Below are positions 10,288 to 55,296 of a stretch of DNA of 64,000 nucleotides, one piece after another. Position numbers and translations under genes: made by a program. The stretch's first letter is position 1, and every line of letters starts with the position of its first letter. The DNA comes from Mesostigma viride (lineage: Eukaryota > Streptophyta > Mesostigmatophyceae > Mesostigmatales > Mesostigmataceae): assembly GCA_009746045.1 (NCBI GenBank), contig RPFO01000034.1, positions 3,041,181 through 3,105,180 of the forward strand. The letters are read 5' to 3'. The notes beneath the pieces were generated by a model. That model saw only the letters and a list, made by a program, of their open reading frames with translations, had not been told where the DNA came from and did not search any database.

Positions 10288-10290
10288 CTC

Positions 10291-20114: not shown

Positions 20115-20323
20115 CCTACGGCCACCGCCCTGGGCCGCTGGGCACAGGTGAGTGTCCCTCGCAAAGTGCCCTGGCTGCCCACACCTGTGACACACCGCTG
20201 GTGCTTGCGAGTTGGCGTTGCTGCGTGCCTGGAGAGTGTCCTTGTGCCTGTGATAGCAATTGGCTGCCATGTGTCCCGACTTCCCACACACAAAGCATGC
20301 CCCATGCACCGCCGGCTGTGCAC

Positions 20324-20367
<44 letters not shown>

Positions 20368-21338: not shown

Positions 21339-21378
21339 TGCTACGTTTTTCCTTATTAATTAACCCCGTCCTAGTACA

Positions 21379-24486: not shown

Positions 24487-24626
24487 CTGTCTGAGGCAAC
24501 CCCTACACACCTTAATTCACCCAGGGGGAGGCCAGGTGCTCCAATGCAGATTTTATATCTGGGCAACAAGAGGGTGATCTCCAGGTTCAGGGTGGCCCCA
24601 GGTCACCTGGAGAGGTACAGGTTCCT

Positions 24627-28716: not shown

Positions 28717-29333
28717 AGTTGTGAGGGTACGAATGCCACGAATTCCGCCATGGTTCTTGCAGGAAGTTGCCTTTATTATTAACAAGGAAACACAGACGTA
28801 AGTCACGTCACTTCCAAGACTGCACGCAGCACAGGCGACAGGGTCGCAGTGCCAAGAGAACGTGCACGCAAGAACTAGCGTCCCGGTGTGACCAAGTCAC
28901 TCATATAGCTTGCTAGGGACGCGTCCAAGTATTCAGCTGCACTGTCACAGCTGAACTGTCAATCAATTGATTACACAGACTCTGGCACGCCTTTGGCGCG
29001 CAGATCTATCAATTGTCCATACGGCTAGTCCTGTGGACCTATCCGTACACTAGTCAGCATCAATTGTCTCATAGGTCCTGGCGCGCTACAGTGCGCCTAC
29101 CTATCAATTGACCATCAAGTCCTGTACAAGTCCTGTCAACGTCCTGCGGACTATCAAAGTGACACTTGTACATCCTGTGTCCGTACGCGCCCACAGTGGC
29201 GCGCCGGGTACTGTCGGCACAGCCTAGGAAACGTCATAACTTTTACGTTCCTTAACCAAATGAGGCGTTCAAGGTGCCGTTGGAAAGAGCGTAACAATCT
29301 CTATCCATCTAACGTAAATCCTTTACGTTAACT
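28717..29333 (-). repeat. B2 3' LTR
   Basis: 617 bp. On the plus strand it reads AGTTGTGAGG... to ...TTTACGTTAACT. A purine tract AAAGAAAAGAAGGGATTG (minus strand, 29334-29351) abuts it as the polypurine tract. Confidence 0.95.
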
Positions 29334-31026: not shown

Positions 31027-32216
31027 ACGCCACTCCCCCCCTTCTTCACCAGTGTGGCCTCCATGCCCACAAACAGCAGAGGCTCATTCTCCACCTGCCA
31101 TTGCTCCCTACCCAGAGGAAACTTGGACTTAATGATGGAGATCAGCTCCTTAAGCCACGACGTGGGAGCTATCAGATGTAGGTCATCCCCGTGCAGCGAA
31201 GCATACACTGGCAGGCCTTCCCATTGCCCCAGAAACAGACAGGGGTCTACAGGAGAGACCTTCAAGTTGCAATGCTCCTTCAGGAAACGGTTGAGAGTCT
31301 CCCTCCAGATTATTGGACTTGACCTCAGGCCCTCCAGGCCCTTGAGGATTTTAAGGAACTCCGTGTGGATGTCCCTTTTCCATACAGCAGGCACCCTAAC
31401 ATAGAAAGGCGTCTTGCCCTCCCACTTTTCCTGTGCCACATCTGCATCACCCTCCAGAAATGCCCTCTTGAAGTCTATCACCACTGAGCCATAGTCCAAG
31501 CCCTTGTTGAGAAGGCCTAGAAAGACACACAGCAGCAGCCTCCAAGTATCATGCAGCATGCCAGGGGTATACAACTCCTCAGCAGTGCACTCACCAGTAC
31601 CCTTGAACTCATTCAGCACTGGCCTGACATGTGGTACCTTGACCCCGTCCACCTCCTTCATCTTGATGACAAACTTGAGCTTGAGTAGACGTCGTGCAGG
31701 AGGCAGGTCATTGACAGGTTCCACGCATTTCTTGGAGATCCAGTCCTCCCCAGATTTAATCAGACCCAGTGTGACCTGGGGACACATAATGGGAGAGGAC
31801 ATGAGCTTCACCAGGCCTTGGTAGTTGATAGGGCTGTGTCCAGCAAGTGAGTGAGGACCAATGCCCAAACTGCTTGGATGACTAGCAGCTGGCAGTATGA
31901 GGTCATCAACCAAGGGCTCCTGCCCCTGGCACACTTGCACACGCTTAACCGTCCTGGTTACTGCACGTGATAGGTGAGTGGTCCTGAAATTAATCAGTGG
32001 GACCTGACCAGCCCCTTCCTTAGTCAGGAGAGAGGACGTGATCACTACCCCATCCTGGCATAGGAAATTCTGCCCCAGAAGAGCAGGTCCTTGATAGCCC
32101 TCCAAGACACAAAAAGCAGTGTCCTGTCCAAGGATAGGAATGAATACCTCACCCAGTACCTTCACGTGTACCCCGCCACTGAAGTCAGACACAAACTGAT
32201 AGCTGGGTTCAGACAT
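30939..32216 (-). CDS. B2 pol, protease-like C-terminal half and RT
   Basis: 425 codons reading straight through the protease end (VFIPILGQDTAFCVLEGY, PALLGQNFL) into RT without the B1 lesion, which shows that protease and RT are one polypeptide. RT blocks are VRPVLNEFKGTGE, VVIDFKRAFLEGDADVAQ, EGLRSSPIIWR and LHGDDLHLI. The frame goes wrong after VKKGG at the G run. Its ATG is internal. The true frame continues from the integrase ORF but for one missing T near 32252. Confidence 0.88.
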   Translation of the reverse strand: MSEPSYQFVSDFSGGVHVKVLGEVFIPILGQDTAFCVLEGYQGPALLGQNFLCQDGVVITSSLLTKEGAGQVPLINFRTTHLSRAVTRTVKRVQVCQGQEPLVDDLILPAASHPSSLGIGPHSLAGHSPINYQGLVKLMSSPIMCPQVTLGLIKSGEDWISKKCVEPVNDLPPARRLLKLKFVIKMKEVDGVKVPHVRPVLNEFKGTGECTAEELYTPGMLHDTWRLLLCVFLGLLNKGLDYGSVVIDFKRAFLEGDADVAQEKWEGKTPFYVRVPAVWKRDIHTEFLKILKGLEGLRSSPIIWRETLNRFLKEHCNLKVSPVDPCLFLGQWEGLPVYASLHGDDLHLIAPTSWLKELISIIKSKFPLGREQWQVENEPLLFVGMEATLVKKGGSGVCCWWGAMTIKRPSLASFLQPSHRHCVPW

Positions 32217-33907
32217 GCTGTACCCTGCTGCAGCCCTGGTCCCAATAATGGAACCTGAGAATTAGTGTCTACCTCTAAGGCAGTGTCCAGCCCCAGATTG
32301 CCATGCCACCTGAGCTTGGCTACCTTGGGCTGCTTCTTGGCCCTTTGTAGAGCCCCAATCAATCCAGCCAAACTTGTCCCCCTGGGCTTGGTTAGTGCCT
32401 TGGGCTTGACAGTTGACTCCCCAGCTGTTGACCTTGCAGCCTGTTCAACAAGTACCTCTGCAACCTGGCCAGGGCTGACAGATTCCCCTGCAACAGATGT
32501 GGTCGTTGCGTCAGTGATGTCACCTGGGACCTGAAAATCCTGCAGATCCTGTGAGCCTTGTGCCTGACTGCCCTCATTCATCAGGTTAGGCTTGACATAT
32601 GACCAACTCAGCCGGTGTACATGCTTTGGTTCGTCCTCCATGCTGACCAAGCATGCGTGGCTAGCTTCATCAACCTGGGTAACCACCCCAGGACTCCAGC
32701 TACCACGTTTGCCATAAAGGCTAGGTTCCTTCCAAGCTAGGACCTTCTGACCCACTTGTGGCTCCAGCATCTTCCAACCCCGGTCCTTCTCCCTCAGCTT
32801 GGCAAAGGTGACATGTGCAGCATGTTTCCAGCCCTCCAGCACATGTGGTGGGCACAGGCCATGATATAGACCCATTGGGCTGACAGCAACTCCATCATAG
32901 TAGAAGTTAACCCTGCTGTTCAGCTGCTGCTCCACGTTCCTCAGCCATGCACTCCTGACAAGTGCAGGTGCAGACAAGGGTACCCAGTCTTCAGAGATGA
33001 TCAATTTCTTGACCTCCTGGATTGCCCTCTCGATAGCACCCTGCTGCCCATGAGCCTCCCTAGGTGTAACCAGCAACTCAGGAAGGGTAGGATCACCCTT
33101 GAGATGCTGAAACTGCATGTCCACCTGGATCCTTGTGGTAGGAAACTTGGCTCTTACATTCTGCAGGGCAGCCAGCAAGTACCTGTTCTTCATAGAAGGT
33201 AAATGCTCCAGCACCTTGTATTTCGTGTACCTGTCCACGCACACCAACAGTTGCATGCCCCTGATGTGTTGGATATCACACTGCAGATCACCAATGCTCT
33301 GAGGTAGAGCTTTGGCATGTGATTTCCTGGGCTTGTTGGAGGACAACTGGCACTTACACCGTGAGGCAGCTTGCTGACACGCCTTAAGAAGGGGTGCCCT
33401 GCCCATACGGAAGGCAAAGTTGTTTGACAGAGAAGTGGCATGCCCAAACATGTTGTGGATTCGGGCACCCAACTCCTGGTACACAGAGGAAGCAGTCCCT
33501 GGCACAGTCAGGACTGTGCTGTCAGGTTGTCCAGCATCACCATGCTGACTTCCATCCTGTTCTGACTCAGAGCCTGAGTCACCCTGCTCATGCCCAACAC
33601 CTGGACCGCCAGCAGGGACCACATGCATACCACCAGAGGCCTTCACACCCCTCTGTGGTTGTACATTGGTTTCTCTCAAAATGAGAGGTCCACCCTCGTG
33701 CCCAGCACGAGGATGCATAGGGTCAGACATACTTACAGCTGCATCAGCTGTCAAGGACGTCTTCATAGGAACCTGTACCTCTCCAGGTGACCTGGGGCCA
33801 CACTGAACCTGGAGATCACCCTCTTGTTGCCCAGATATAAAATCTGCATTGGAGCACCTGGCCTCCCCCTTGGGTGAATTAAGGTGTGTAGGGGTTGCCT
33901 CAGACAG
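32162..33907 (-). CDS. B2 pol, integrase and start of protease-like domain
   Basis: Open from the codon after the gag UGA (33908-33910) in the same frame as gag; first Met at 33766. The integrase matches B1 (LQCDIQ, QVDMQF, QGAIER). The protease begins LEVDTNSQV, then shifts frame because B2 has GGTTCC where B1 has GGTTTCC. B1 and B2 therefore carry different, complementary lesions. Confidence 0.88.
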   Translation of the reverse strand: MSEATPTHLNSPKGEARCSNADFISGQQEGDLQVQCGPRSPGEVQVPMKTSLTADAAVSMSDPMHPRAGHEGGPLILRETNVQPQRGVKASGGMHVVPAGGPGVGHEQGDSGSESEQDGSQHGDAGQPDSTVLTVPGTASSVYQELGARIHNMFGHATSLSNNFAFRMGRAPLLKACQQAASRCKCQLSSNKPRKSHAKALPQSIGDLQCDIQHIRGMQLLVCVDRYTKYKVLEHLPSMKNRYLLAALQNVRAKFPTTRIQVDMQFQHLKGDPTLPELLVTPREAHGQQGAIERAIQEVKKLIISEDWVPLSAPALVRSAWLRNVEQQLNSRVNFYYDGVAVSPMGLYHGLCPPHVLEGWKHAAHVTFAKLREKDRGWKMLEPQVGQKVLAWKEPSLYGKRGSWSPGVVTQVDEASHACLVSMEDEPKHVHRLSWSYVKPNLMNEGSQAQGSQDLQDFQVPGDITDATTTSVAGESVSPGQVAEVLVEQAARSTAGESTVKPKALTKPRGTSLAGLIGALQRAKKQPKVAKLRWHGNLGLDTALEVDTNSQVPLLGPGLQQGTACLNPAISLCLTSVAGYT

Positions 33908-35023
33908 TCACTGCTCCTTGTTGTCTTCTTGCTGACTGCCCTTTGAAGGCTGGCCTGCCTGGGACTTGTTGTTGTTCTTCTTGTTGTTGTTGTTATTCTT
34001 GTTGCTGCCCTGGCCCTGGGACTTCTTGAAGCTGGGACACTCCTTCTTGATGTGCCCCCACCCCTTGCACAGGTAGCATTGTATCTTGGACTTGCCCTGG
34101 CCACTGCCCCCATTGTCAGACGCGTTGCCCTGCTTGGGCTGACCACCCACCCGCCTGAACACCGACTTGGAGTGTGACCTCCTGTCAGAATCAGGTGAAT
34201 GATCTCCCTTGCGCTTGTGATGGTTGCCCCTACGCCCTCCTTGGCTTCGGTCAGCCTCAGACGTCTTGGAGCCACCCTGGGTACGCCCGCCTGCCTGGGT
34301 AGCCTTCACTGCTGGCACTCCACCCTCAAACAGCTCCTCTGCCTCGAGAGCTTGTTTAATGATGACCTTGTAGGCCTTCAGGGTAGAGTGTGGGGCACAC
34401 ATGACTTTTAAGGAGCCACGTGTCGCCTTATCCAGCCCAGAAACCTTGAGCCAGTTGGTTAGGGCTATGTTATCAGCGACATTAAAGCCGTGAGCCCTGC
34501 CCTCCTCAACCATCTTACAATAGTTGAGAAAGTTCTGGATCAGGTCCCCCTTGACCTCCCACCCTTGGTACTTGTCCTGCCAATGGATGCCGACCTTCTT
34601 TCGTTGGTCCTCCAGCAGCTCCTTCAGCTCAGCCACGTACAGTGCCCAGGCCTTATTGGCCTTTTTGCACTCCCTGGTTAGGTCCTTAATCTGGTCAGTA
34701 CACTTGCCAAAAGTGCTACTGCCTATCCAGATTTGATAGTAATTTGTACCACCGTACAAGCTAGGGAACCCTTCCAATCCCTCCACAAACTCTTCAGCCT
34801 GCTTAGGCTTGGAGTCTGAGGTTACAGGCTGCAACTGATTGACAATTAAAAGACCCTGTGTGGTAAGATCAAAGCCATGAATAGCTTGTGCATTATTATT
34901 ATTGTGAGGAAGGTTGGTAATCTCTCCGGTAAGCCCCACGTCATCTACGTGAGCGGTTCCACTACCAGCACCCCCATTATTATTCCCACTGGCTGGACCC
35001 TTGCTACGGCGTCCCTCAGCCAT
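33908..35023 (-). CDS. gag: B2 gag, intact, one zinc knuckle
   Basis: 371 residues, MAEGRRSKGPASG start. The N-terminal half resembles Copia-type gag (WVALADQL-like features replaced by NYYQIWIGSSTFG). A Ser/Lys/Arg-rich linker is followed by the zinc knuckle CYLCKGWGHIKKEC and an Asn/Lys tail. The stop is UGA followed by CUG U, with pol in frame, as in element A. It differs from B1 mostly in the first 45 residues. Confidence 0.9.
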   Translation of the reverse strand: MAEGRRSKGPASGNNNGGAGSGTAHVDDVGLTGEITNLPHNNNNAQAIHGFDLTTQGLLIVNQLQPVTSDSKPKQAEEFVEGLEGFPSLYGGTNYYQIWIGSSTFGKCTDQIKDLTRECKKANKAWALYVAELKELLEDQRKKVGIHWQDKYQGWEVKGDLIQNFLNYCKMVEEGRAHGFNVADNIALTNWLKVSGLDKATRGSLKVMCAPHSTLKAYKVIIKQALEAEELFEGGVPAVKATQAGGRTQGGSKTSEADRSQGGRRGNHHKRKGDHSPDSDRRSHSKSVFRRVGGQPKQGNASDNGGSGQGKSKIQCYLCKGWGHIKKECPSFKKSQGQGSNKNNNNNKKNNNKSQAGQPSKGSQQEDNKEQ

Positions 35024-35192
35024 CCTGCACTACCAGCTATTCAAAGAACACCTTAACAAAGCAGCAGAAAATATGTACAAAATTTTTGTGTCGCCACTGC
35101 CGCCTGCGCCGGTGTCGCTGCCGCCCCCGCGAATTGCCGCCGAAATTCGACAAAAAAATGTCGACAAGTACTGCAGAAGAAAATTAGGCCGA

Positions 35193-35923: not shown

Positions 35924-36540
35924 AGTTGTGAGGGTAAGAATGCCACGAATTCCGCCATGGTTCTTGCAGGAAGTTGCCTTTATTATTAACAAGGAAACAC
36001 AGACGTAAGTCACGTCACTTCCAAGACTGCACGCAGCACAGACGACAGGGTCGCAGTGCCAAGAGAACGTGCACGCAAGAACTAGCGTCCCGGTGTGACC
36101 AAGTCACTCATATAGCTTACTAGGGACGCGTCCAAGTATTCAGCTGCACTGTCACAGCTGAACTGTCAATCAATTGATTACACAGACTCTGGCACGCCTT
36201 TGGCGCGCAGATCTATCAATTGTCCATACGGCTAGTCCTGTGGACCTATCCGTACACTAGTCAGCATCAATTGTCTCATAGGTCCTGGCGCGCTACAGTG
36301 CGCCTACCTATCAATTGACCATCAAGTCCTGTACAAGTCCTGTCAACGTCCTGCGGACTATCAAAGTGACACTTGTACATCCTGTGTCCGTACGCGCCCA
36401 CAGTGGCGCGCCGGGTACTGTCGGCACAGCCTAGGAAACGTCATAACTTTTACGTTCCTTAACCAAATGAGGCGTTCAAGGTGCCGTTGGAAAGAGCGTA
36501 ACAATCTCTATCCATCTAACGTAAATCCTTTACGTTAACT
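35924..36540 (-). repeat. B2 5' LTR
   Basis: 617 bp; partner of 28717-29333. Confidence 0.95.
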
Positions 36541-37136: not shown

Positions 37137-37564
37137 AGTTGTGCTCCCGAGTGGCATCTATCCGCTGGCCGGTAGTCGCCGGCCTGGGCGCCTAGTCAGG
37201 TGGGCATCAAAGATTGGTGTCTAGATGCTAGTCGGTGCCTAAGCAAGGTACGGAAGCCAGTGCGCGCCGGGACGGTCAGAGAACCGTCGCCCTCGGTAGC
37301 ACAGATCCGCTGAGTGCCGGTAGTCTCGGGTTAGAGGCTCGAGCATGCACTATCGGGTAGCCTACCGGTAGTCTCGGGTTAGAGGCTCGAGCATGCCTTA
37401 TCGGTTAGCGCCGCGCCGCTGAGCTCCTTGTGGCCTGGCCAGCTGCAAGGGTTCAATAGCAATCAGTGGCGGCTGCGGGCTCAGCCTCCCACAATCGGTT
37501 CCCCAAACAACAAAATCCCGTCTCCATCGCCGGCGTGCTAGTCAGCGGTGAAGGGCGTTCAACT
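37137..37564 (+). repeat. Element C 5' LTR
   Basis: 428 bp. It includes two copies of CCGGTAGTCTCGGGTTAGAG followed by GCTCGAGCATGC (about 37317 and 37366). Confidence 0.95.
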
Positions 37565-37610
37565 TGTATTCACAACAGTCAACATTGCCGTTGACCATTT
37601 TTCTGGGCTC

Positions 37611-38816
37611 ATGGCGCGTGGCGCGGAGCGAACGCCAGCTGCAACCCAGGACCAGGGAACGCAAGCATCAACTCCGGCGGATGGGAGTGGCGCAGCCACC
37701 GTGGCGACTGAGCCAGCTGGTGGCTCGGTCAGCACAGCTCCGGGGCAGCAGTCAGCACCAACTGCCCGGAAAGTTTTCAAGAAAGAAGAGCTGCCAAGTA
37801 AGCTGCCAGAAATTCTGACGCCGTCCGCCGTGGAGGAGTTTATTAACAGCCTGGGCGAGCTCCGGCAGGACTACAACGAATTGTCCGACGCAGTTTTCCT
37901 CACCAAGCTGCGCCGGTCAGAGGTATGCAACGAGGCTACGGGTAATGCGGACGTGCGAGGGGTCATTATCAACGCCAGCAAAGAGGCGTGGACCTGGCCC
38001 GACACAGTGAAGGCCCTGCAAGAGGTGCTCGACACCTCAAGCTTTCCTGACGAGGAAAAGGAGGGGCAGGCGCTGGTGCGCAACCTGTCGCTTGACCCCA
38101 ATTACCTCAGCTCGGACATGGCCAGATTCGCGGCCCAGGTCCGGAGCAAGGGTGTCTTGAAGCACATGAGTAGCGAATATTTACTCAGCGCAGTTCTGGA
38201 TGCGCTGGGGCTGACGCCAGAGAGCCGTGCCAATGTCAAGGCCGGTCTCGGCATGAAAATTGCGCTAGCCTCTTCCGTGGTAGTGGGCACCCCGGACGAC
38301 CAGAAACGGTTCAACGCAGCCATGGCGCACCTCCGAGAGATGTTCAAGGACCGGGGCGGCCCCAGGCGTAACAACAAGCTGCCGACAGTTGCTCAGGTAA
38401 ACCCTGTGCCTGCCTCGACCCCGCCAGCAGCTTCTCTGTCGGACTTGACCACTCTTGTTACCCAGCTGTCCACGACGGTGGCCGACAACGTGGTGCGAAT
38501 GTTGGGTGGCAAACGCCGAGCTCGCGGTGGTCGGCACAACCAGAACGCGTCCAGCAAACGCGGGCCGGGAGGCGGTCAGGGCAAGCAGCCTCGCCAGGAG
38601 GGCGGCACTGGCAGGCAGCAACAGCAGCAGGGTGGTGTCCCCAAGGAGAAGGTCGTCTGCGAGCGGTGCACCGGCGTGGGGCACACCGAGGACAACTGCA
38701 CGCTGCGGCTGGACCTCGGCAAGGCGACTCGAGTGTGCCGGCGCTGCTGGGCGGTTCGGCTTCCTGGACACGACCCCAACACATGCCGCGCCCCACGGCC
38801 AGCCATGCCCAAGTGA
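37611..38816 (+). CDS. gag: Element C gag
   Basis: About 401 residues from MARGAERTP (the frame also extends upstream into the LTR from 37548, but that start would sit inside the LTR). The N-terminal 60 residues are Ala/Thr/Gly/Ser-rich. A helical capsid-like core follows (PSAVEEFINSLGELRQDY onward), then a basic Gly/Arg/Gln-rich linker. Two zinc knuckles end the protein: CERCTGVGHTEDNC (CX2CX4HX4C) and a variant starting CRRCWAVRLPGH with longer spacing. It ends KPAMPK-like MPK then UGA (38814-38816) followed by CGU, with pol in the same frame. Confidence 0.9.
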   Translation: MARGAERTPAATQDQGTQASTPADGSGAATVATEPAGGSVSTAPGQQSAPTARKVFKKEELPSKLPEILTPSAVEEFINSLGELRQDYNELSDAVFLTKLRRSEVCNEATGNADVRGVIINASKEAWTWPDTVKALQEVLDTSSFPDEEKEGQALVRNLSLDPNYLSSDMARFAAQVRSKGVLKHMSSEYLLSAVLDALGLTPESRANVKAGLGMKIALASSVVVGTPDDQKRFNAAMAHLREMFKDRGGPRRNNKLPTVAQVNPVPASTPPAASLSDLTTLVTQLSTTVADNVVRMLGGKRRARGGRHNQNASSKRGPGGGQGKQPRQEGGTGRQQQQQGGVPKEKVVCERCTGVGHTEDNCTLRLDLGKATRVCRRCWAVRLPGHDPNTCRAPRPAMPK

Positions 38817-41800
38817 CGTCATAGAGGTGATGTGTGTCGCGGTGAGTCGGCTAGGCGTGAGGATGCTGTGCCTTGTAGTCCTAATGTTCCCACGTCAGTG
38901 GTTCAGAATGGAAGTGCAAGTGCTGCAGCTGATCAGGAGTGCGTGCCCAGCGTGGTCGCAATAGAGCCTGAACACGCCCTTCCGGAGCTCACCCCTTCAG
39001 GTGAGATAGTGCCGGCAGATGCCGAGGTAGCCCCTCACGTAGACGTGGAGTTGGGTCGCCGCCTCAGTAAGGCCTCACTAGAGCACATTGCCGACAGGAA
39101 TGCACATGCAGAGAGCTTGGCGGGGCAGGTGCCTAGCATAGAAGGGGATGGCACCACCCCCACGGCCATAGGATTGCGGATGCTTGCTCACCAGATTCAC
39201 CTTGCGGTGGGTCATGTGGCGGGGCAAACGCTAGACTGGGCGACTCGGCTTATGGGGGCGCCGGGGTTGAAGGTCGCTCAGGCGGAGTTAGAGGAGTGCC
39301 ACGCATGCGCAAGTGTCAGGAAGAAGCGTAGGCGCTGGCATGCTAAGACTCCTTCCCCGTACCGGGGGAGGTTAGTGGGGGATGTCATGCATTTGGAGGA
39401 GGGGGACTATTATTTGGTCTTGATGGATCGCTATACCAAGTTCCTAGCCATCGAGCCCCTGCCAAGCATGGTAGAGGAGTCCTTGTGGCGGGGGCTGCGC
39501 ATTGCCATGTCTCACTTCTTTCCCATTTCTGAGGTCATGTTGGACCAACAATTTGATTGCATTGTGGGGCGGGAGGGCTGTGAGATGGTGGTTATTGCTG
39601 GGCGGCAGGACCATGGCAACTTGGGGCTGATTGATAGGCACATCAGCAGCGTAAAGGGCATGGCAGCCAAGCAGCAGGCCAGCGGGTTAGGATTCAAGCC
39701 CGCGGGGCAGCCTTATGCACAACGCGCGCTGTGGTGCCGCTTGCTCATGGACAAGTACAACAGCCAGGTGCTTTTCAAGCTGCCCCAGGGACTAGGTCTT
39801 ATTACCGCGCGGGGGCTGCAGTCGGGCATTTACCCTCCGGACGTGGCAGACCATTGGGAGGCCCACCTCGCTACCACCGCTGAGGTTAGGCGGCAGTTAG
39901 ACCGCACCCAGCCTGACTTGTCGCAGGAGTGGGAGCTGGGGGAGTTGGTCTTGTTTCACAAGGAGAATTCCTTTGGCAAGCGGGGGCAGATGCAAGGGCC
40001 AGGCATGGTGGTGGATTTGGACTGGGTGCATAGGCGGGTGAAGGTGCACTGGGAGCATAGGGACTATCTCATCCCGTGGGATAAGGTGTATCGGTACAAG
40101 GCGTCCGATGCCCAGGTCCAGGCGGCCAAGGAGCACAGCCGCCAGCTCGGTTGGGATGTGGATAGCCGGCCGGCCAAGCGGGCCCGGCTGGAACCTGTCC
40201 TACCCACCCCACTTGGGGTGGCTGTGCATGATGCGCTTGTTGCCCACCCCCCTGCAGGCGCCGCGCCGGAGCAAGTCCCCGGGGTCGACGCGGGGGCGAT
40301 ACCTCAGCCCCTCCCCGCGACCCCAGCAGCGCCCACCGTGGCGGCGCCGGACACATCGTCAGGCGCGGGCGTGGGCTCCCAGCTGGCCCACGTCCTCCGA
40401 CAGCTGCTCAAGGCGGACAAGCTCAAGGCGGCGGCAGCGGGGGGTGCGGCACAAGTCAGCCGCGTCATGCCAGATAAGTGCCCCACCGTTGTGGCTGAAG
40501 CTCATGATGTTCCCTCTAGGCATATTGCGGCCATAGATACCATGGCAGGGGTGTCTATCACGAGCCCGGCGGCGGCCGAGGCCTATTACCCTTTGCTGCC
40601 CAGTAGTTGGAAGGAGGTTGCGGGGTTTGACGGGCAGCGGGCCTATAAGGTGGCTGGGCAGGTGCTCATGCCCATCCTAGGGGTAGATGTCCCTGTGCAA
40701 GTGCTAGAGGGTTACAAGGGGATCACCCTCATAGGTAACCCTTTTGTTTCCCTCCCCGGGTTTTCTGTGTCAGCCGGCTTGGTGACCCTCGAGGGGGTGG
40801 GGAGCATAGGATTATACCAATATCACGTAGCGCTTGCAGCCCTCACGGGCCGGGGTCCCCCCGAGGCTATTAATCACCCTGAGGATTATGCCACTGCAGT
40901 AGGGGCCATTCGCGGGGCGGAATATACGGCAGAGCCGCTGGTAGCCGATGTCACGCAGCCGCAGAAGTGTCACCCCAGCAGTCTTGGCATTTTTCCCTGG
41001 AGCATCGCCACTAAATCTCCTATTAGTTATCCGCAGTTTAAGGAGGACTGCCGTGACCCTGTCAAGTTCCATAAGTGGCGCGCGGCTTTCTTGCGCGCGC
41101 AGCTGGAGTGGGCGATGTATGGGGTGTATGGGGAGTTGATGGAGGTGCCGCAAGGGGCGGTAAAGCTGAACTTGAAGTTTGTGCTCAAGTATAAGCAGGT
41201 CCTCCCCACTGACCCTGTCACATTTCATGTACGGCCCTGTGTCACGGAGTTTAGGGGCTCGTCTGAGTTGTCGGAGGAGGAATTGTTTACGCCCGGGCTG
41301 TCGCAGACCACTAGCCGGGTGTTAACATCGGTGTTCTTGGGGCTGTTGGATCGGGGGTTGGACTATGCCATGGCCTGCTCAGATTTTCAGCGGGCCTTTC
41401 TCCATAGCGACCCGGCAGTGGCCGAGGAAGTGTGGCGTGGCACGGTGTATGTGGTCAAGGTCCCTTTGGTGTGGCAGGGGGAGCTGCGGTGTGTGTACTT
41501 GCGGCTTCTCCTTGGTGTGGAGGGCCTGCAGTCTAGCCCCATCATCTTTCGCAAGACGGCTGAACGCATCTTTGCTAGCATGGGGGCGGTGTTTTCCCGC
41601 ATCGATAGCAACCTCTTTCACATCCACACACCCAACCCACACGAGCCCGCGTTCATGCAATGGCATGGGGATGACTGGCGGCTTATTGGACCCCGGGCGT
41701 GGGTCCGGCAGTTCATAACCGCTGTGGCCAAGCTTTTGCCCACTAGCCGCACGTTGTGGCTGGACCCCGACACCCCCGTCCCTTTCTGTGGCCTAACCTA

Positions 41801-42348
41801 CACTTTGCACCGCACACCGGTTGGCTGGTGCATTGACATGGCGGCCAAGCAGGAATACGCCGACAAGCTCGCGCAATCGCTGCCTGAGCGGCTGGATGCG
41901 TCCGCGGGACCGCACTTGCGCGGCCAGCTGGGGTGGCTCGCGGGCACGGTGCGACCCGACCTGTCCATCTACGCGCGTGCGCCCGACGCCGTGCTTGCGG
42001 GCATGGGAGCGCAGCATCTTCGGACGCAAGTCTTGGCGTCACCGGGCCTGCGCGTGTGGGGGGTTGATATCACCCGCCCGGTGGCAATGACCATTTATTC
42101 TGACGCGAACCTGGAGTCGCGTACCCTCACGCAGCTGCGCGCGCGGGAGGCGGCCATCTATTTTCTTGATAGCCCCACTGGGCAGCCCACTATTGTCGAC
42201 TGGTATAGCCGCATCCATCAGCGGGTAGTGGTAGACAGCAATCGCGCGGAGTGTCGCGCGTTCATTTCCGCTGTCGACCATGCGTGTTATGTGCAGCATC
42301 TTTTGCAATGGATTGCGGATAAGGCCCGCGTGGCGCTGTCGCTCCGCA
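38817..42348 (+). CDS. Element C pol (integrase, protease-like, RT, RNase H part 1)
   Basis: In frame directly after the gag UGA; residues are counted from codon 38832. Zinc region around AHQIHLAVGHVAG and ECHACAS. Integrase core has D184 (GDVMHL), D238 (LDQQFD) and D268 (GLIDRH), the last being Asp where A and B have Glu. Integrase C-terminal KRGQMQGPGMVV. A retropepsin-like domain starts IAAIDTMAGVS (D569) and includes VLEGYKGITLIGNPFV. RT has CSDFQRAFLHS and WHGDD (about 944-948). RNase H begins IYSDANLES, with AECRAFISAV. The frame is cut by element D after codon 42345; the printed end (42374) runs 26 nt into D. Confidence 0.93.
42345..42348. other. TSD of element D, left copy (CGCA)
   Basis: CGCA at 42345-42348 and 52513-52516. 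Removing D plus one copy restores the pol frame exactly. Confidence 0.85.
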
Positions 42349-42411
42349 GGGTGGTCCCACGCGGAATGGGGTAGATTTTTGCAAGAAAAAAACGCTAGTT
42401 TCAATCGTCCG
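42349..42411 (+). repeat. Element D left TIR
   Basis: Starts GGGTGGTCCCACGCGG; inverse of 52440-52512 with a short indel. Confidence 0.9.
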
Positions 42412-43300
42412 AAAACCGGACATTGCGCCGAAATTCTTGCCGAATTTTTTGCAGCCGAGCGAATTTTCCGCCGGCCGGACTTTGCGCCAGTTTTATTTAA
42501 CTTGACCTTTTCCTGCTGTCGCGTGCACTTTGTCCCATGCCTCAGGGACTGAAATTTTTGTAGCGGAAACGTTTTGGCCGTCACTTCCTTTTGCGCCAAG
42601 TGTTGGACTAGAAAATTCGTAACAGAAACTTTTTGGCAGTTGGCGTCACTTCCTTTCGTTCGACTGAAAATTCTCTGAAATTCGCTGAATTCGTACCGTA
42701 GCCTAATTTTTAATACCTCGAAGTGACGGGGCACTTAAAAATTTGCCCACAAGTACACTTGGCAGCGCGCTCACTGGGAAAAATTGTACAGCCGCTCGGC
42801 GGGCCACTTCAAAATTCGTGCGTGGCCTGCACTAATACAATTCGTCTCCATGGCCTGCTAGCAGCTTTTTACTATCAATTCAGGGAATCAACAAACTCTA
42901 AAGAAAGTTTGATGGAATCGTATATATATTTGCATGTACTAATTGACAAGGCAATGTGCCTACAAAAAGGTGCGGGGACAACCTGATGACGGAAATTGTC
43001 GAAGTCTTTCAGACTACTACCGTTCCTGCTATCGCGTGCACTTCAGTTCGTCCGTTGCCTATATCATTTACATAACTTAAATAATAAAATCAAGGTCGCG
43101 CTGCAAAAAGAGGCTTCACAACAACCATCACCAACAATACTAGGATCAGAATACTAGGAAGAAACCTGATGGCTCTATCTTGACCGCATAGAATAGTAAT
43201 TCCCTCAATTCAACAAAAAACGACTCACCTTCACTCACCCTCGTTCCGGGCCACCTCTTGCTCCTTCATCTCGTGCGTGAACCATGCACCGCAAACATTG
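42412..43300. other. Element D, left interior, no gene recognised
   Basis: Moderately AT-rich. GAAAATTCGTAACAGAAAC-like and GAAATTTTTGTAGCGGAAAC-like stretches repeat (42550 and 42612), as do CACTTCCTTT motifs. No coding support. Confidence 0.5.
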
Positions 43301-43483
43301 ACTAGGTGTGCTTTGAAAGAAACCGAGCATACATGTCAAAGTGTAGAAAATACATGTCAAAGTGCGCCCCTTCGAACAACAGCAGCAAAATTATAACCCC
43401 TGTTGCCGCGGCCCATCCCGTCACATGTGACTTCAAGACGTCCCTCATTTGCGACGAGTATTGCAAAGTAGTGTCGTAATCCA

Positions 43484-43657
43484 TCGATGTGTCTGTAATC
43501 TGGGGGCCAATTGTTCGCAAGGATAGGTGGCAATTAGTAATGAAGGAGACCACCCCCAAGTCTGTGGGGGCTCCGCGTGTGACACCCCCAAGCCGGTGGG
43601 AGGCATTCACAGTACCCCAGATTCGGGCCGTGGTGCCCACATACCCCTGTAACTAGG
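43484..43657 (+). other. Exon-like fragment in element D (relative at 6620-6713)
   Basis: A plus-strand frame encodes SVIWGPIVRKDRWQ, then LVMKETTPKSVGAPRVT, TPPSRWEAF and VPTYPCN-stop. The core is shared with the left flank at 6620-6713 (minus). Family unknown. It could be captured host exon sequence or part of a transposon gene dispersed in the genome. Confidence 0.4.
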
Positions 43658-43685
43658 ACTTCGATAATAAGCGCCATCCATCCCA

Positions 43686-43943
43686 TCACACTCGACTGTA
43701 CTGAGTCGGCTTATCAAGGAGACAACAAGCGCAGGTATATATTTCCGAATTCAACTCCAATTGGAATACTTGCACAAAGCGAAACGAAAATAATTGCAAT
43801 TGAGGACTCTCTGCAGCTAGACCCTCGCCCACTTGCTCAACATCGATTCTACCATATGGTGTGTGCAACTTCACACTTAACCTCCCCGTTCTCAACATGC
43901 GTGCCTCAACTCCCCCTTCCGTTGGGTTATACCAAACAAACAA
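43686..43943 (-). other. Exon-like frame, unknown
   Basis: An 85-codon minus frame with well-mixed, protein-like composition (GRLSVKLHTPYGRIDVEQVG and so on). It contains GAGGGTCTAGCTGCAGAGAG, the seed of the hairpin repeats that fill 44392-44905. Not recognised; may be an exon of an element-borne gene from which the repeat was derived. Confidence 0.3.
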
Positions 43944-44391
43944 AGAATTATTAAGTTGCGCAGCAAGTTCAAGAGTTGTTCGTATACAAAAAAAACAAGC
44001 TACTAATTATTTATTTGCACGGGCACAGTAGCACTTGCAGCTAATAAAACGCTATCGTCTAATTCCGAAGGGCCTTTCGGCTAAATCAAAATTAACGATG
44101 CGGGCAGTGTGGCCGGAGCTGGAGACCTAACGGACATGACAGACCCCTAATGCGTCTGAGGGGACGCACGAGGAGGCAAGGCTGGAACGTCCTCTGGAAC
44201 CTTCCCCACCTAATCCGGAGATCCCGGGGGGCTCACTGTTTGCGGTGAAACATTGGTGGCCTTGGCCTTTGAATAATAGGACGCATCGTTCCCAGACATC
44301 TGCAGCAAATGATACAAAGCCATGGAGCAATTTCGAAAGTATCCGTAAGAATCATGTAGACCTGAGAAACAATTTTTTCGCAACCTCCAAG

Positions 44392-44905
44392 TTGGGAGGG
44401 GTCTCGCTGCAGCTAGACCCTTCCGTGAACGCAAAAAATAAACATCGAATAACTGGGAGGTCTTCCTGCAGCTAGACCCCTCAAATCATACAAAGATGAA
44501 ACATTGAAGTTGGGAGGGGTCTAGCTGCAGCTAGACCCTTACAGGAATGCGAAAAAACAACCAATAATTGGGAGGGTCTACCTGCAGCTATACCCTTACA
44601 TGCAATCAAAAAGGATGAAACCTTGGAAGTTGGGAGGGGTCTAGCTGCAGCTAGACCCTTACAGGAATGCGAAAAAACAACCAATAATTGGGAGGGTCTA
44701 CCTGCAGCTAGACCCTTACATGCAATCAAAAAGGATGAAACCTTGGAAGTTGGGTGGGGTCTAGCTGCAGCTAGACCCTTACAGGAATGCGAAAAAACAA
44801 CCAATAATTGGGAGGGTCTACCTGCAGCTAGACCCTTACATGCAATCAAAAAGGATGAAACCTTGGAAGTTGGGAGGGGTCTCTCTGCAGGTAGACCCTT
44901 CAACG
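44392..44905 (+). repeat. Hairpin-forming tandem repeat, left arm
   Basis: A 120-bp unit made of two 60-bp halves, each centred on a palindrome with half-site GGGTCTAGCTG (or GGGTCTACCTG) reading into its complement at CTGCAG. About nine copies. The four perfect-unit starts are spaced 120 bp (about 44518, 44638, 44758 and 44878). Confidence 0.9.
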
Positions 44906-44976
44906 AAGGCAAGAATTCTATCACAAATTCATGGGAGCAGATCTGAAGAGAGACCTAATCCAATCATGTGAGGACT

Positions 44977-46066
44977 GGCATGGGTGTGTCGCATGCGTGC
45001 GTGGGTGTGGTGGATGCGTGCGTGTGGTGGGTGGCTGCCATGGCGTGCGTGGGTGTGGTGGATGCGTGGCATGCGTGCGTGGGTGCGGTGGAAGGCTGGC
45101 ATGCGTGCGCGGGTGGGCTAGCATGCGTGCGTGAGTGTGGTGGTGGGCTGGCATGCGTGCGTGGATGTGGTGGGTGCCTGGCATGTGTGCGTGGGTGTGG
45201 TGGGTGCCTGGCATGCGTGCCTGGTTGTGGTGGGTGGCTGGCATGCGTGCGTGAATGTGGTGGTGGGCTAGCATGCGTGCGTGGGTGTGGTGGTGGGCTG
45301 GCATGCGTGCGTGGGTGTGGTGGATGGCTGGCATGCGTGCGTGGGTGTGGTGGATGCGTGGCATGCGTGCATGGGTGCGGTGGATGGCTGGCATGCGTGC
45401 GCGGGTGGGCTAGCATGCGTGCGTGAGTGTGGTGGTGGGCTGGCATGCGTGAGTGGATGTGTTGGGTGCCTGGCATGTGTGCGTGGGTGTGTTGGGTGCC
45501 TGGCATGCGTGCCTGGTTGTGGTGGGTGGCTGGGATGCGTGCGTGAATGTGGTGGTGGGCTAGCATGCGTGCGTGGGTGTGGTGGTGGGCTGGCATGCGT
45601 GCGTGGGTGTGGTGGATGGCTGGCATGCGTGCGTGGGTGTGGTGGATGGGTGGCATGCGTGCATGGGTGTGGTGGGTGGCTGGCATGCGTGCGTGGGTGG
45701 CTGGCATGCATGCGTGGATGTGGTGTTGGGCTGGCATGCGTGCGTGGGTGTGGTGGTGGGCTGGCATGCGCGCGTGGGTGTGTTGGATGGCTGGCATGCG
45801 TGCATGGGTGTGGTGGTGGGCTGGCATGCGTGCGTGGGTGTGGTGGGTGGCTGGCATGCGTGCGTGGGTGTGGTGGGTGGCTGGCATGCGTGCGTGGGTG
45901 TGGTGGGTGGCTGGCATGCGTGCGTGGGTGTGGTGGGTGGCTGGCATGCGTGCGTGGGTGTGGTGGGTGGCTGGCATGCGTGTGTGGGTGTGGTGGGTGG
46001 CTGGCATGCGTGCGTGGGTGTGTTGGATGGGTGGCATGCGTGCCTGGGTGTGTTGGGGGGGCTGGC
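44977..46066 (+). repeat. 30-bp minisatellite, left arm
   Basis: About 36 copies of a GGCATGCGTGCGTGGGTGTG + GTGGGTGGCT unit with variants. Because 30 is a multiple of three and the unit lacks stops, frames of up to 357 codons arise on both strands. They encode repeating decapeptides and are not genes. Confidence 0.95.
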
Positions 46067-46525
46067 GTTTATATACTGAGAATAATATAGTTTTAAAAAG
46101 GACATATAGTTACCAAACATAATATATAATAGCTATTAATCGTTGCCTATCCAAAGTTGCATGCAGTAAGTGCAACAGCCAAAATATGCCAACAAATCAG
46201 TTGATGGGAATTTCATAAAACTTACAATCGAAATACAACAGACCCCAGTTAGAAGAACGAAGGAATATCTGCGTGACAGGGAATAACGCACCAGAGATGC
46301 TCGGTAAGCGTTGCTGACCGAAACACAACGGAAAAACACTGCCCGGTTGCTGGTAAGAGAATAAAAAGGCGTTGTCCATAATCGAAATACATAAACAAAG
46401 AGCGGGAGTCATACCTGCCTTGCGGGAAGTGACGCAACGAATGTTATGGCCGAGCAAACTGGGCCTCCTTTCCCGTTGCTGACGGAAACACACCTCAAAC
46501 AGACGGCCTCGAAGCATGGTAATGC

Positions 46526-46882
46526 ATGCAACGACGTTCAAAAGCGTCCCAAATCGAAATAAAACGAAACCGAGCGCAAAATACAGTGGAATATATGCAT
46601 ATCGGAATATATGCATGGCGGGGCATGATGTATTGGAAAAGCCTGGTTGCCTTCGTATCCGCTCCTGACGTGAACAAATGGAAAGAGACCGCCTGGAAGC
46701 CAACATATGCAGGCGACACCGTTCCAAAGCCCAGAAAACAAAAATGCAGCTTACCCAGGCGTCATTCCGGGTGCCACCGTCTTACCCTGACAGTCGTCAT
46801 CCCAGCAACCTCTCCAAGAGCTTACGGCCCCCACAGTCCAGGAGCTTGCATGACCCATCATTACGTACCTAAGCATCGGTGA
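46526..46882 (+). other. Conserved frame in left arm of the inverted repeat
   Basis: A 118-codon frame shares MMYWKSLVA.VSAPDVNKWK, ETAWKPTYA and SLPRRHSGCH.LTLTVV with the minus frame at 47583-47927. Conservation may simply reflect arm homology. Function unknown. Confidence 0.3.
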
Positions 46883-47582
46883 TTTTAAAACCGCGCTCCT
46901 AAGCGCACAAAAAGAGAGCTAGCTTTCCCAACGGCATGACGAACTGAACACTTTCCTATCGACAGCCATACCGTAATCCCGTGGCCATTTGCAGCGTGAT
47001 GCAATTAGGGTTGGGTAGGTAATAGGTAGGCTGCTGGTTTTTGTTAGAATTGTGATGTGCATCATTTTGTTGGGCCCGTGGGCCACAATCATCGCCGTCA
47101 ACGGCTCAACGCTGCGCTTTGAGTTTTTACGTGTGAACCGTCAGCCCTCGAGTGTCGTCCAATCTTCTTGCTCGGTTACTAATAATGTCGTATTCCAAAG
47201 GAACACTAGTAATGAAAACGGTCGCAAAGCGTACGGCTGTAAAAGGGTAGAAAACGGTAACGTGGCATCCTCGCAGTCGCCGGAAAGTGGAAGCGCGGCG
47301 CCGATGGCAATCGTCTCGACCAAATTTTTCGAAACCGAGAAAGCAGATTGGACGACACTTGAAGGCTGACGTCCACACGTGAAGACCCACCAGAGCGCAG
47401 CGTTGAGCCGTTGACGGCGATGTGGCCCACGGGCCCAGCAAAATAATGCACATCAATTGCATCGCGTCGCAAATGGCCGCTGGACAAATGGTATGGCTGT
47501 CGACAGCGACGTGCTCAGTTGGTCATGTTTGTTACAGGAAAGCTAGTGGTATTCTTGTACGCTTAGAAGCGTGGTTTTAAAG

Positions 47583-47927
47583 TCACCGATGCTGAGGTAC
47601 GTTATGATGGGTCATGGAAACTCCTGGACTGTGGGGGCCGTAAGCTCTGCTAGAGGTTGCTAGGATGACGACTGTCAGGGTAAGATGGTGGCACCCGGAA
47701 TGACGCCTGGGTAAGCTCTGTTCGTGTTTGCTGGGCTTCGGAACAGTGGCGCATGCATATGTTGGCTTCCAGGCGGTCTCTTTCCATTTGTTCACGTCAG
47801 GAGCGGATACGGAGGCAACCAGGCTTTTCCAATACATCATGTCCCGCCATGCATGTATTCTACCGGCTTTAGCGCTCGGTTTCTTTTCATGTCGATCTGG
47901 GACGCTTTTGAACGTCGTTGCATTCAT
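47583..47927 (-). other. Conserved frame in right arm of the inverted repeat
   Basis: 114-codon mirror of 46526-46882. Substitutions exist but the frame is open in both arms. Not recognised. Confidence 0.3.
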
Positions 47928-48026
47928 TACTATGCTTTGAGGCCGTCTGTTTGAATTGTATTTCCGTCAGCCACGGGCAAGGAGGCCCAGTTTGCTCGGC
48001 CATAACATTCGTTGCGTCACTTCCCG

Positions 48027-49197
48027 CATGCCACGCATCCACCACCACACCCACGCACACATGCCACCCATCCGACACACCCACGCACGCATGCCACCCA
48101 TCCAACACACCCACGCACGCATGCCACCCATCCAACACACCCACGCACGCATGCCAGCCACCCACCACACCCACGCACGCATGCCAGCCACCCACCACAC
48201 CCATGCACGCATGCCAGCCACCCACCACACCCACGCACGTATGCCAGCCACCCACCACACCCACGCACACATCCACCACACCCACGCACGCAAGCCAGCC
48301 ATCCACCACACCCACGCACGCAGGCCAGCCACCCACCACACCCACGCACGCATGCTACCCATCCAACACACCCACGCACGCATGCCAGCCCACCACCACA
48401 CCCACGCACGCATGCCAGCCATCCACCACACCCACGCACGCATGCCATGCATCCACCACCACACCCACGCACACAGGCCTGCCAGCCACCACACACACCC
48501 CACGCATGCATGCCAGCCCACCACCACACGCACGCATGCCAGCCCACCACCACACCCACACAGGCATGCCACGCATCCACCACACCCACGCACGCATGCC
48601 AGCCACCCACCACACCCATGCACGCATCCACCACACCCACGCACGCATGGCAGCCATCCACCACACCCACGCACGCAAGCATGCCACCCACCACACCCAT
48701 GCACGCATGCCAGCCACCCGCGACACCCACGCACGTATGCTAGCCCACCACCACACCCACACATGCATGCCAGCCATTCACCACACCCACGCACGCATGC
48801 CAGCCATCCACCACACCCACGCACGCATGCTAGCCCACCACCACATTCACGCACGCATGCCAGCCACCCACCACACCCACGCACGCATGCCAGCCACCCC
48901 AGACACCCACGCACGCAGGCCAGCCCACCACCACATCCACGCGCGCATGCTAGCCCACCACCACATTCACGCACGCATGCCAGCCACCCACCACACCCAC
49001 GCACGCAGGCCAGCCACCCATCACACCCATGCACGCATGCCAGGCACCCACCACACCCACGCACGCATGCCACCCACCCACCACACCCACGCACGCATGC
49101 CAGCCACCCACCACACCCACGCACACATGCTAGCCCACCACCACACCCACGCACACATGCCCACCACACCCACGCATCCCACCCAGCACACCCACGC
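48027..49197 (-). repeat. 30-bp minisatellite, right arm (inverse of left)
   Basis: About 39 copies of CCAGCCACCCACCACACCCA + CGCACGCATG, the reverse complement of the left array. It produces spurious frames up to 592 codons. Confidence 0.95.
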
Positions 49198-49218
49198 CAG
49201 TCCTTGCATGTTTGGCAA

Positions 49219-49790
49219 GGGTCTCTTTGCAGAGAGACGATGTTACTCATTTGTGATAAAGTTCTCGAATTCCTGTAAGGGTCTAGCTGCAGCTAGACCC
49301 CTCCCAACTTCCCAGGTTTCATCCTTTTTGATTGCATGTAAGGGTCTAGCTGCAGGTAGACCCTCCCAATTATTGGTTGTTTTTTCGCATTCTTGTAAGG
49401 GTCTAGCTGCAGCTAGACCCCTCCCAACTTCCCTGGTTTCATCCTTTTTGATTGCATGTAAGGGTCTAGCTGCAGGTAGACCCTCCCAATTATTGGTTGT
49501 TTTTTCGCATTCCTGTAAGGGTCTAGCTGCAGCTAGACCCCACCCAACTTCCAAGGTTTCATCCTTTTTGATTGCATGTAAGGGTCTAGCTGCAGGTAGA
49601 CCCTCCCAATTATTGGTTGTTTTTTCGCATTCCTGTAAGGGTCTAGCTGCAGCTAGACCCCTCCCAACTTCAATGTTTCATCTTTGTATGATTTGAGGGG
49701 TCTAGTTGCAGGAAGACCTCCCACTTATTCGATGTTTATTTTTTGCGTTCACGGAAGGGTCTAGCTGCAGCGAGACCCCTCCCCAATTCG
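49219..49790 (-). repeat. Hairpin-forming tandem repeat, right arm
   Basis: About ten palindromes centred on CTGCAG, 60 bp apart and inverted relative to 44392-44905, separated by CATCCTTTTTGATTGCATGT and TTGGTTGTTTTTTCGCATTC spacers. Confidence 0.9.
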
Positions 49791-50060
49791 AGGTTGTGAA
49801 ACATGCTTTTGTGCGGGGGTACTTGATTCGTCGAATACTTTCGAAATGCCTCCGTTGCTTTGCATCATTTTTTGTAAATGTTTTCGAGCGACGCGTCGTA
49901 GACTACAGGTGCTTGACGACGGTATGCGTGACTGTGTTTTTGTTGTGTTATGTGCAGCCCGAGACATTGACGGTAATGAAACTTTTGAAGGGTGAGGCGG
50001 GCTATTAAGTGGATAAGGCCATAATCCGCTTGCCATACTAAGTGCTTGCTATGTGTTGAG

Positions 50061-50306
50061 ATGGCGGGTGCGGGTGCCGTCGGCGCGCAAATTAAGTTGT
50101 GCGAGAGTGTAGCTTACACAGATAACTGGCTGGACCACATTGCGATGTTGGAAGCCATAGCGTGATCCCTAATCGGGAACAGTGTCAAGGAGGACTACAT
50201 TTTTCATGTTTTGAAGATTGCCGAATCGTGCATTTTACAGTTGAAGTCGGATGTTGGGAGTGTCATACCTTGTCGTGCTTTTTTATGGGCGACGCTCGTT
50301 GATTGA
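50061..50306 (+). pseudogene. Exon-like frame with in-frame TGA, unknown
   Basis: Codons from ATG at 50061 read MAGAGAVGAQIKLCESVAYT, then DNWLDHIAMLEAIA. A TGA lies at 50163-50165, then the frame continues SLIGNSVKEDYIFHVLKIAE through LWATLVD to TGA at 50304. The amphipathic, protein-like sequence on both sides of one stop suggests a decayed or recoded exon of an element-borne gene. Not recognised. Confidence 0.35.
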
Positions 50307-51229
50307 TTTGGCGAGTCCAGAAGTACAAGTTTGAGGGTTGTGATGAACGGGAAAGGATGTATACTAATTAATTAATTAGACTTGTGCTCCCGTTGGGGAG
50401 TCACGGAGCATTAACCCCGATGGATCGATGGATGGATGGAAACGGTGTATATGGAAAACCGTGATACTTGCTGCCATGTGGTTGTCTCCTTAATGTTTCA
50501 AATATATAAGACAGCCGGCACTTGCTCATTGACGTTTCTGTGGCTCGCCCCTTGGCTCTTAGCCATGTGCGCATGGTTCAGTTGGTGCATCCCAGGCGGC
50601 GGCCGGGCTACCCGGCGGATCGGGTTGAGCGGGCCAAGCCCACGGCCTAAGGCGATGTCGGGCACCACCGTGTGGTGCCCTTCGTCTTGGAGTTCGGGGC
50701 CTTGGGGACCCTTACCGCCGGCTTCTTTAAGGAGTAAGTAAGTACCTGCGGAAGTTCTTTTAAGGAGTGTTGCCCGCGGCTCCGGGAGGACTGCGTGGAC
50801 CTGGAGGGCTAGCGGGCCCCTGGGTCGGCGCGGACCTGGACGCCGTACTGTTTAGGCTTGTTGTTGTTGTTGTTGTGTCTCACGCCGCACATGGGCAGCA
50901 GAGAATCTGTAGTGGCCGAGGGCCGGATATATTTAGTATCGGTGGTACTATCAAGGAGACAACCAGCAGTACTATGTTTAGGCTTAGGCCCAGTCTAGTA
51001 CACGGAAAGTTGGGAAGCCGATAACCCAAAGAATAAAGCTTGGTCAACGCGAGTCAGCGCATGGAATCCAGTAGAATCTGGCAGCGAGGAACGGATAACG
51101 CTCGGATTGTCTTTTTCATTTGTCTCGATAAAACTCTCAAAAAAAAAAAATGCCTGATCAAGCAGTAATTCTGGGTTGCTGCCCAGGCATTTGACACCGA
51201 TTTTCGTGAGTTTTCGTGTAGTTGGCTAG

Positions 51230-51535
51230 TTGCCCCCGTGTCCAGGATTTCAGAAATCGGACGTATCCAACGCAGGTCAACCTTCCTTTACGGGTTTGGT
51301 GTGCGTCGAAAAGACGATTCCAGGTATTAAGAATCTCTGCTTACCGTATTTGACGGACGACTTCCCGATTCCTCCGCCGACCCTTGAATCTTCATGTCGG
51401 CTCTCAGGAACTTTCACTTTTGCCCCCCCCAACTTTCCGTGCCTTGAGTACGTAGTAAGATTATGCCAGCCCGGGTCTATCTGCGAGGAGAGGTTGAAGG
51501 ACGAACCGCACCATGTGCAAAGACAACAAGGGTAA
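51230..51535 (+). other. Exon-like frame, possible multi-exon gene of element D
   Basis: A frame preceded by CAG-ending pyrimidine context reads FQKSDVSNAGQPSFTGLVCV, then KTIPGIKNLCLPYLTDDFPI and onward. It ends near AACAAGGGTAAATT, a plausible splice donor. A following segment after TTTTAG (51632) reads SLVDGLIGMRAGKEDVERIL, and 51851-52033 reads MDGEKDFGAREAFWSDGWTS. Together these suggest a plus-strand intron-containing gene at about 51230-52033. Function unknown; transposase or captured gene both possible. Confidence 0.3.
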
Positions 51536-52029
51536 ATTATAAGAAGGGTAATCTAAAATTTCTGCGAGTGGATTGTGTCCTCACTTGATATCCAAACTTT
51601 GGCAATCCCTCTTCTTCTAATAACTCGATTTTAGTCACTCGTTGATGGGTTGATCGGTATGCGCGCAGGTAAGGAGGATGTGGAGCGGATCCTACACTTG
51701 GCAAATGTGGCGGTGGACTTCGGACCAGCGGCTCAACATGCTGACACTTCCGGAGGGAAGGCTAAGGGGGCGGAAGAGAGGCTAAGGGGGCGGGCAATGA
51801 GGGTGATGAGAAGCCCACGTTGGAAATGAGACTTATTAAGTGAGACAACTATGGACGGGGAAAAAGACTTTGGAGCACGAGAGGCCTTTTGGTCTGATGG
51901 GTGGACTTCTGCCGTTATGAAGGCAGGGAACAAGGATCCGGAGAATCCAATGTATGCAAAGTTAGAAGACGTGATGCTTTATGGGCAGATGTCTGGATAC
52001 GACACCAATAGGAGGGTCGTCAGTCGCAC

Positions 52030-52224
52030 TTAATTTTTTGAGGGCCTTATCCGTAATTTCGCTTCCGCAATCTGCTCTTGCGTTTTCGACTTCCTCCTCT
52101 TGCTGTCCGTCAGCTCTGCCACCTTTATCACGTAGTCTAGCGGCATCCAGTACAACTGCCTCTTCAACTTCCCTCCGTCCTCCCCCACAGGAAAAAAGTT
52201 GAGGGGAAATGATGAGCGCTCCAT
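52030..52224 (-). other. Exon-like frame convergent with the preceding one
   Basis: A 64-codon minus frame ends KSKTQEQIAEAKLRIRPSKN-stop after LKRQLYWMPLDYVIKVAELT. Charged, helix-like, gene-like composition. Not recognised. It overlaps the end of the plus-strand frame tail to tail. Confidence 0.3.
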
Positions 52225-52439
52225 GTGGTTGGCAATGCTCGTCCTATTGTTTTAGATTCGAAGTTTAGGTTGTTGTCGAGTCTCTCCATGTGAAATATAC
52301 CCTTAGATTGACATGTTTTACTAAATTTCAAGCCTCTCGATGTGGAATGTACGCTCAAATTGACATGAATTAAGCATTATGACACCAAATTAGCTCGAAA
52401 ATACGCGATCGGACGCCAAATTCGCGCGAAAAAACGCGA

Positions 52440-52512
52440 TCGGACGATTGAAACTAGCGTTTTTTTCTTGCAAAATGCGCAAAAAATGACCCCATTCCGC
52501 GTGGGACCACCC
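52440..52512 (-). repeat. Element D right TIR
   Basis: Inverse of 42349-42411, ending GGGACCACCC. Confidence 0.9.
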
Positions 52513-52516
52513 CGCA

Positions 52517-52734
52517 TGCGGCTGTGCACAGATAGCAAGTCAATAATTGAGTTTCTGAATAACCCGCTCGCCTCCACCACCAAACTCGATTACCTTGTGT
52601 TGGCCGAGTCCGCCACGGTGTTGGATGAGCGGCGGTGGATCCCCGAGAGCGAGAATATTGCCGATGCCTTGACCAAGCCAGCGATGCTGTCGGGGCCTCA
52701 GTACAAGCTGCTGCGGCAGCTCATGATGACATGA
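52517..52734 (+). CDS. Element C pol, RNase H C-terminal part
   Basis: Continues the 38817-42348 frame after D and its TSD. It holds the last RNase H acid (LCTDSKSIIEF) and the Copia tail IPESENIADALTK, then LSGPQYKLLRQLMM and a TGA stop. Confidence 0.92.
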
Positions 52735-53073: not shown

Positions 53074-53501
53074 AGTTGTGCTCCCGAGTGGCATCTATCC
53101 GCTGGCCGGTAGTCGCCGGCCTGGGCGCCTAGTCAGGTGGGCATCAAAGATTGGTGTCTAGATGCTAGTCGGTGCCTAAGCAAGGTACGGAAGCCAGTGC
53201 GCGCCGGGACGGTCAGAGAACCGTCGCCCTCGGTAGCACAGATCCGCTGAGTGCCGGTAGTCTCGGGTTAGAGGCTCGAGCATGCACTATCGGGTAGCCT
53301 ACCGGTAGTCTCGGGTTAGAGGCTCGAGCATGCCTTATCGGTTAGCGCCGCGCCGCTGAGCTCCTTGTGGCCTGGCCAGCTGCAAGGGTTCAATAGCAAT
53401 CAGTGGCGGCTGCGGGCTCAGCCTCCCACAATCGGTTCCCCAAACAACAAAATCCCGTCTCCATCGCCGGCGTGCTAGTCAGCGGTGAAGGGCGTTCAAC
53501 T
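53074..53501 (+). repeat. Element C 3' LTR
   Basis: 428 bp, appears identical to 37137-37564. TSD GTGCT follows at 53502-53506. Confidence 0.95.
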
Positions 53502-55291: not shown

Positions 55292-55296
55292 CTGCA

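Follow-up and report, generated by a model that had tools for sequence, protein, structure and literature searches.

In which order do the domains of pol lie in the long terminal repeat (LTR) retrotransposons of the unicellular streptophyte alga Mesostigma viride, and where among them is the protease? The question is raised by a 64,000-nucleotide stretch of contig RPFO01000034.1 (the window, whose first letter is position 1), which holds copies of three element families, A, B (copies B1 and B2), and C; B1 and C lie on the plus strand, A and B2 on the minus strand. In all three families, a retropepsin-like segment (PR) follows integrase (IN) and precedes reverse transcriptase (RT), as the original prediction had claimed and as both open frames and motifs bear out. 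In C, a single open reading frame (ORF; 38817-42374) contains, in this order, IN with its zinc motif and acids (39117-40139), the PR-like segment (40500-40800; Asp of IDTM at 40536), RT (41000-41760; HGDD at about 41664), and an initial portion of RNase H (about 41900-42347). IN (24876-25829) and PR (26076-26440, frameshifted at about 26345; Asp of VDTN at 26124) share a single ORF (24516-26348) in B1, and PR (31950-32285; Asp of VDTN at 32269) and RT (31029-31901) share another (32261-30939) in B2, where a frameshift directly follows the Asp, beyond which the frame stays open into RT. In A, IN (18873-19823) and the start of PR are in ORF 20111-18012, and the remaining PR, RT, and RNase H (the latter two at 16222-17878) are in ORF 18135-16219, a frameshift near 18100-18114 splitting the PR domain (17980-18299; Asp of VDTD at 18257). 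The order PR-RT-RNase H is also present in P0001, a separate gene model.

The region is heavily nested, which could favor the view that nested insertions, or errors of assembly, produced the order artificially. We regard this as extremely improbable, since the IN-PR and PR-RT junctions are each covered by an uninterrupted frame in one copy or more of every family, P0001 is a separate model, and the insertion points and target duplications that were read lie away from the junctions. The order, the frames that carry it, the UGA positions, and the conservation between families can all be read directly from the DNA.

Structure prediction and a hidden Markov model search had been proposed as checks on the identity of the segment. 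The predicted model (pLDDT 62.7) superposed on retropepsins in 50 of the 50 rows listed, three of which begin with the model's Asp on residue 25 of the retropepsin. In a profile search against solved structures, the 60 rows shown were all retroviral protease or pol chains, with 0 of 3 such rows in the reversed-sequence control. Pfam had no match to the segment. The likeness to retropepsins (retroviral proteases, DDI1 RVP, and the Rickettsia retropepsin-like protease) covers the flap-to-C-terminus sequence and the overall fold, with the Asp placed on residue 25 in the three rows mentioned. This support, moderate but convergent, suggests with moderate confidence that the segment would adopt a retropepsin fold.

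The solved-structure match spans the flap to the C-terminus and leaves the Asp motif outside. The third residue of the canonical retropepsin motif is glycine, and this Asp-Thr/Ser-Gly site is absent in A, B, and C; the segment instead follows the pattern D-T-[M/N/D]-[A/S]-x-V-[S/C]-[I/L], with IDTM in C, VDTN in B, and VDTD in A. Thus, of the retropepsin start claimed earlier for these motifs, the Asp and Thr are present in all three families, and the glycine is found in none (0/3). The lack of the glycine in 3/3 families (DTM, DTN, and DTD), together with the conservation of the whole segment between families, would also fit a catalytically dead retropepsin fold kept as a structural or dimerization module, with maturation left to a host protease, to another element acting in trans, or to none. 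We consider this unlikely, since nothing would hold Asp and Thr in place at a dead site, and both are retained in 3/3 families despite differences at 59 to 62% of aligned RT positions, a retention observed in a small sample (n = 3 families).

The 5' LTR (37137-37564) and 3' LTR (53074-53501) of C are 100% identical, and B1 and B2 differ by 8 synonymous and 2 nonsynonymous codons (five pieces, 2,798 bases), and we therefore take the C and B families to have moved recently. Because they did so although the glycine is absent, either a non-glycine site would function or these elements would manage without a protease of their own.

Could the true protease lie elsewhere? The original prediction had noted that no D(T/S)G motif lies between the gag zinc knuckle and IN. 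With the PR profile, hhalign detected no protease in the three gag-IN linkers and three gag ORFs of A, B2, and C (probabilities of 0.05 to 0.15%), a negative limited by the thin profile (Neff 1.7) and the lack of a positive control. That limit leaves some room for a true protease too diverged to detect, encoded in gag or ahead of IN, in which case PR would have arisen by duplication or would be a beta-rich connector of unrelated origin; Pfam misses the segment as well, so a second diverged copy could escape, and a GDSG occurs before IN in family B. The conservation between families speaks against it. The gag-IN linkers are unconserved (Z of -0.7 to 0.2), as are the IN-PR linkers (-0.9 to 0.4), unlike IN (40.4 to 56.4), the halves of PR (11.7 to 28.6), RT (68 to 100), and RNase H (33 to 85); gag before the knuckle scored -0.2 to 0.6 and whole gag 1.9 to 5.0. 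PR is therefore, on these alignments, a conserved block with an unconserved spacer on its IN side, and we hold a protease elsewhere to be very unlikely.

How would a pol of this kind be expressed? In A, B2, and C, gag and pol are in the same frame with a single UGA-C stop between them; the gag of B1 is frameshifted and was left out of this count. In C, gag occupies the stop-delimited ORF 37542-38816, whose first ATG is at 37611 and whose CCHC knuckle is at 38658. This gag ORF ends with TGA at 38814-38816 followed by CGT, that of A (20112-21359; zf-CCHC in two stretches, E of 3.2e-9) with TGA at 20112-20114 followed by CTA, and that of B2 (33908-35029) with TGA at 33908-33910 followed by CTG. 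The junction contexts are thus UGA CGU, UGA CUA, and UGA CUG, respectively, and UGA-CUA is a leaky stop context. Readthrough of the UGA would be expected to yield Gag-Pol in all three. The Candida albicans element Tca2, whose domain order is the usual Copia order, has a gag/pol UGA in common with A, B2, and C. In Tca2 this UGA separates the gag and pol ORFs, and the sequence around it was not sufficient by itself to direct readthrough in yeast (PMC2194720), which leaves the mechanism there unsettled.

The account that we favor, and consider probable as a whole, is that these are Ty1/copia elements of M. viride in which the order gag-(UGA)-IN-PR-RT-RNase H replaces gag-PR-IN-RT-RNase H. Mostly Gag alone would be made, a minority of ribosomes passing the in-frame UGA to give Gag-Pol. 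Gag-Pol would join Gag in particles, where dimerization would pair two copies of PR, and the paired copies would excise themselves from between IN and RT. The IN-PR-RT order would have arisen once, before the split of A, B, and C, and been retained since.

The assignment to Ty1/copia draws on the type of RT and on the domain order. RVT_2, the Copia model of RT, matched above the Pfam cutoff in A (E of 1.9e-8) and in the gene model P0002 (1.6e-12) and below it in B2 (8.5e-7) and the gene model P0003 (2.3e-4). C and P0001 had no RVT_2 match of their own, and the RT of C is linked through its identity to that of A (95 of 238 positions). RVT_2 was the sole RT family reported up to an E of 5 or 10, with no Gypsy-type RT, so that the claim of a Copia-like character holds for the RT type. 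The RNase H of A, B, and C, that of C having no Pfam match, is named from its position and from motifs that we take to be characteristic. Since IN precedes RT and the RT is of the RVT_2 type, the families would be relatives of Copia with PR moved: most likely a Ty1/copia lineage with its protease relocated to mid-pol, where proteolysis is predicted. They share with Ty1/copia (Pseudoviridae; plant and algal) the RVT_2-type RT, IN before RT, RNase H last, and LTRs with 5-bp target duplications, and differ from it in that PR follows IN, whereas the Ty1/copia protease precedes it.

The three families are distinct, as had been claimed, their RTs being 38 to 41% identical. The close proteins found were gene models of M. 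viride itself: P0001 shares 99% identity with C across 57% of the query, and P0002 and P0003 are 84% and 38% identical to A. The window would accordingly come from this alga or a very close strain. Searches for related proteins found no relatives of A, B, or C outside Mesostigma.

Has such an order been described before? Among the matches listed in the open-licence PubMed Central literature (Repbase being outside the search), no described IN-PR-RT clade was found, and the words copia and gypsy are absent from the main text, as far as it was available, of two genome papers (PMC6947507 and PMC7027972). One study states that pol domain order varies among LTR families (PMC3248453). A plant survey gives two orders, PROT-INT-RT-RH and PROT-RT-RH-INT, with the protease first in both, and states that it discarded elements of unexpected order (PMC6317226). 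The RT of A, B, and C is of the Copia type. The Gmr1-like Ty3/gypsy elements differ, since there a Gypsy integrase occupies a Copia-like position and the protease remains first in pol. Their INT is upstream of RT throughout the clade, which sets a precedent for a pol domain moved for good (PMC3587641 and PMC2774666).

We tentatively propose, at somewhat less than even confidence, that A, B, and C represent a deep lineage of Copia in streptophyte algae, so far undescribed, with an internal non-glycine Asp-Thr-X protease, be it a working new form or a retired IN-RT connector. LTR elements are classified by pol order, and pipelines that filter unexpected orders, such as that of the plant survey (PMC6317226), would drop an IN-PR-RT lineage. 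Such a lineage would allow testing whether particles can mature when the protease is not adjacent to Gag, and whether a retropepsin can do without its active-site glycine.

IN was named from its motifs together with sub-cutoff rve matches (E of 0.0058 to 0.018), namely 0.0058 for B1, 0.015 for the ORF of B2, whose IN (32564-33517) was placed by alignment, and 0.018 for C; that of A, which has no Pfam match of its own, was placed by its zinc motif and alignment to the IN of the other families. The zinc motif is H-H-CxxC in A and C (from 39189 in C), and in B the pair is C-K-C. The catalytic acids are D, D, and E in A and B; in C the first two are at 39381 and 39543, and the third is Asp (GAT, 39633) instead of Glu. 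For this reason, the present C copy may depend on other copies. Near the IN C-terminus, a GKRG......GPG.V...D motif is conserved (39975-40025 in C, with equivalents in A and B), which seems to us reminiscent of the GPF/Y module known from the integrases of Gypsy elements and retroviruses.

The RNase H of C stops at 42347 and continues at 52513 (remainder at 52513-52731, 100% identical to P0001), on either side of an insertion of about 10.2 kb (42348-52512; no strand assigned). Its terminal inverted repeats comprise 76 aligned bases, 83% identical, and start with GGGTGGTCCC. The listed ORFs of at least 150 amino acids in it are mostly repeat translations; no transposase was recognized among them, no family search having been run on the insertion. 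An apparent CGCA duplication accompanies it, and inside are two inverted satellite-bearing arms (44277-46066 versus 48093-49900; 85% identical) with units of 30 and 120 bp.

The LTR pairs and target duplications that were read make the region a heavy nest of LTR elements. C is inserted within the 3' LTR of B1 (duplication GTGCT), A (LTRs 15162-15744 and 21379-21961; CCCGG) within the B1 5' LTR, and B2 (LTRs 28717-29333 and 35924-36540; GTAAC) in the B1 interior, in the orientation opposite to B1. The LTR pairs of A, B2, and C are 99.5 to 100% identical, each element having a 5-bp target duplication. The LTR ends are AGTT...AACT in B2 (28717 and 36540) and C (37137 and 53501) and TG...CA in A. 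A direct pair about 45 kb apart (9591-10289 and 54587-55293; 98% identical) probably represents the LTRs of an outer element enclosing the whole nest, and another direct pair, 72% identical, lies at the edges of the window (2343-3284 and 62798-63757).
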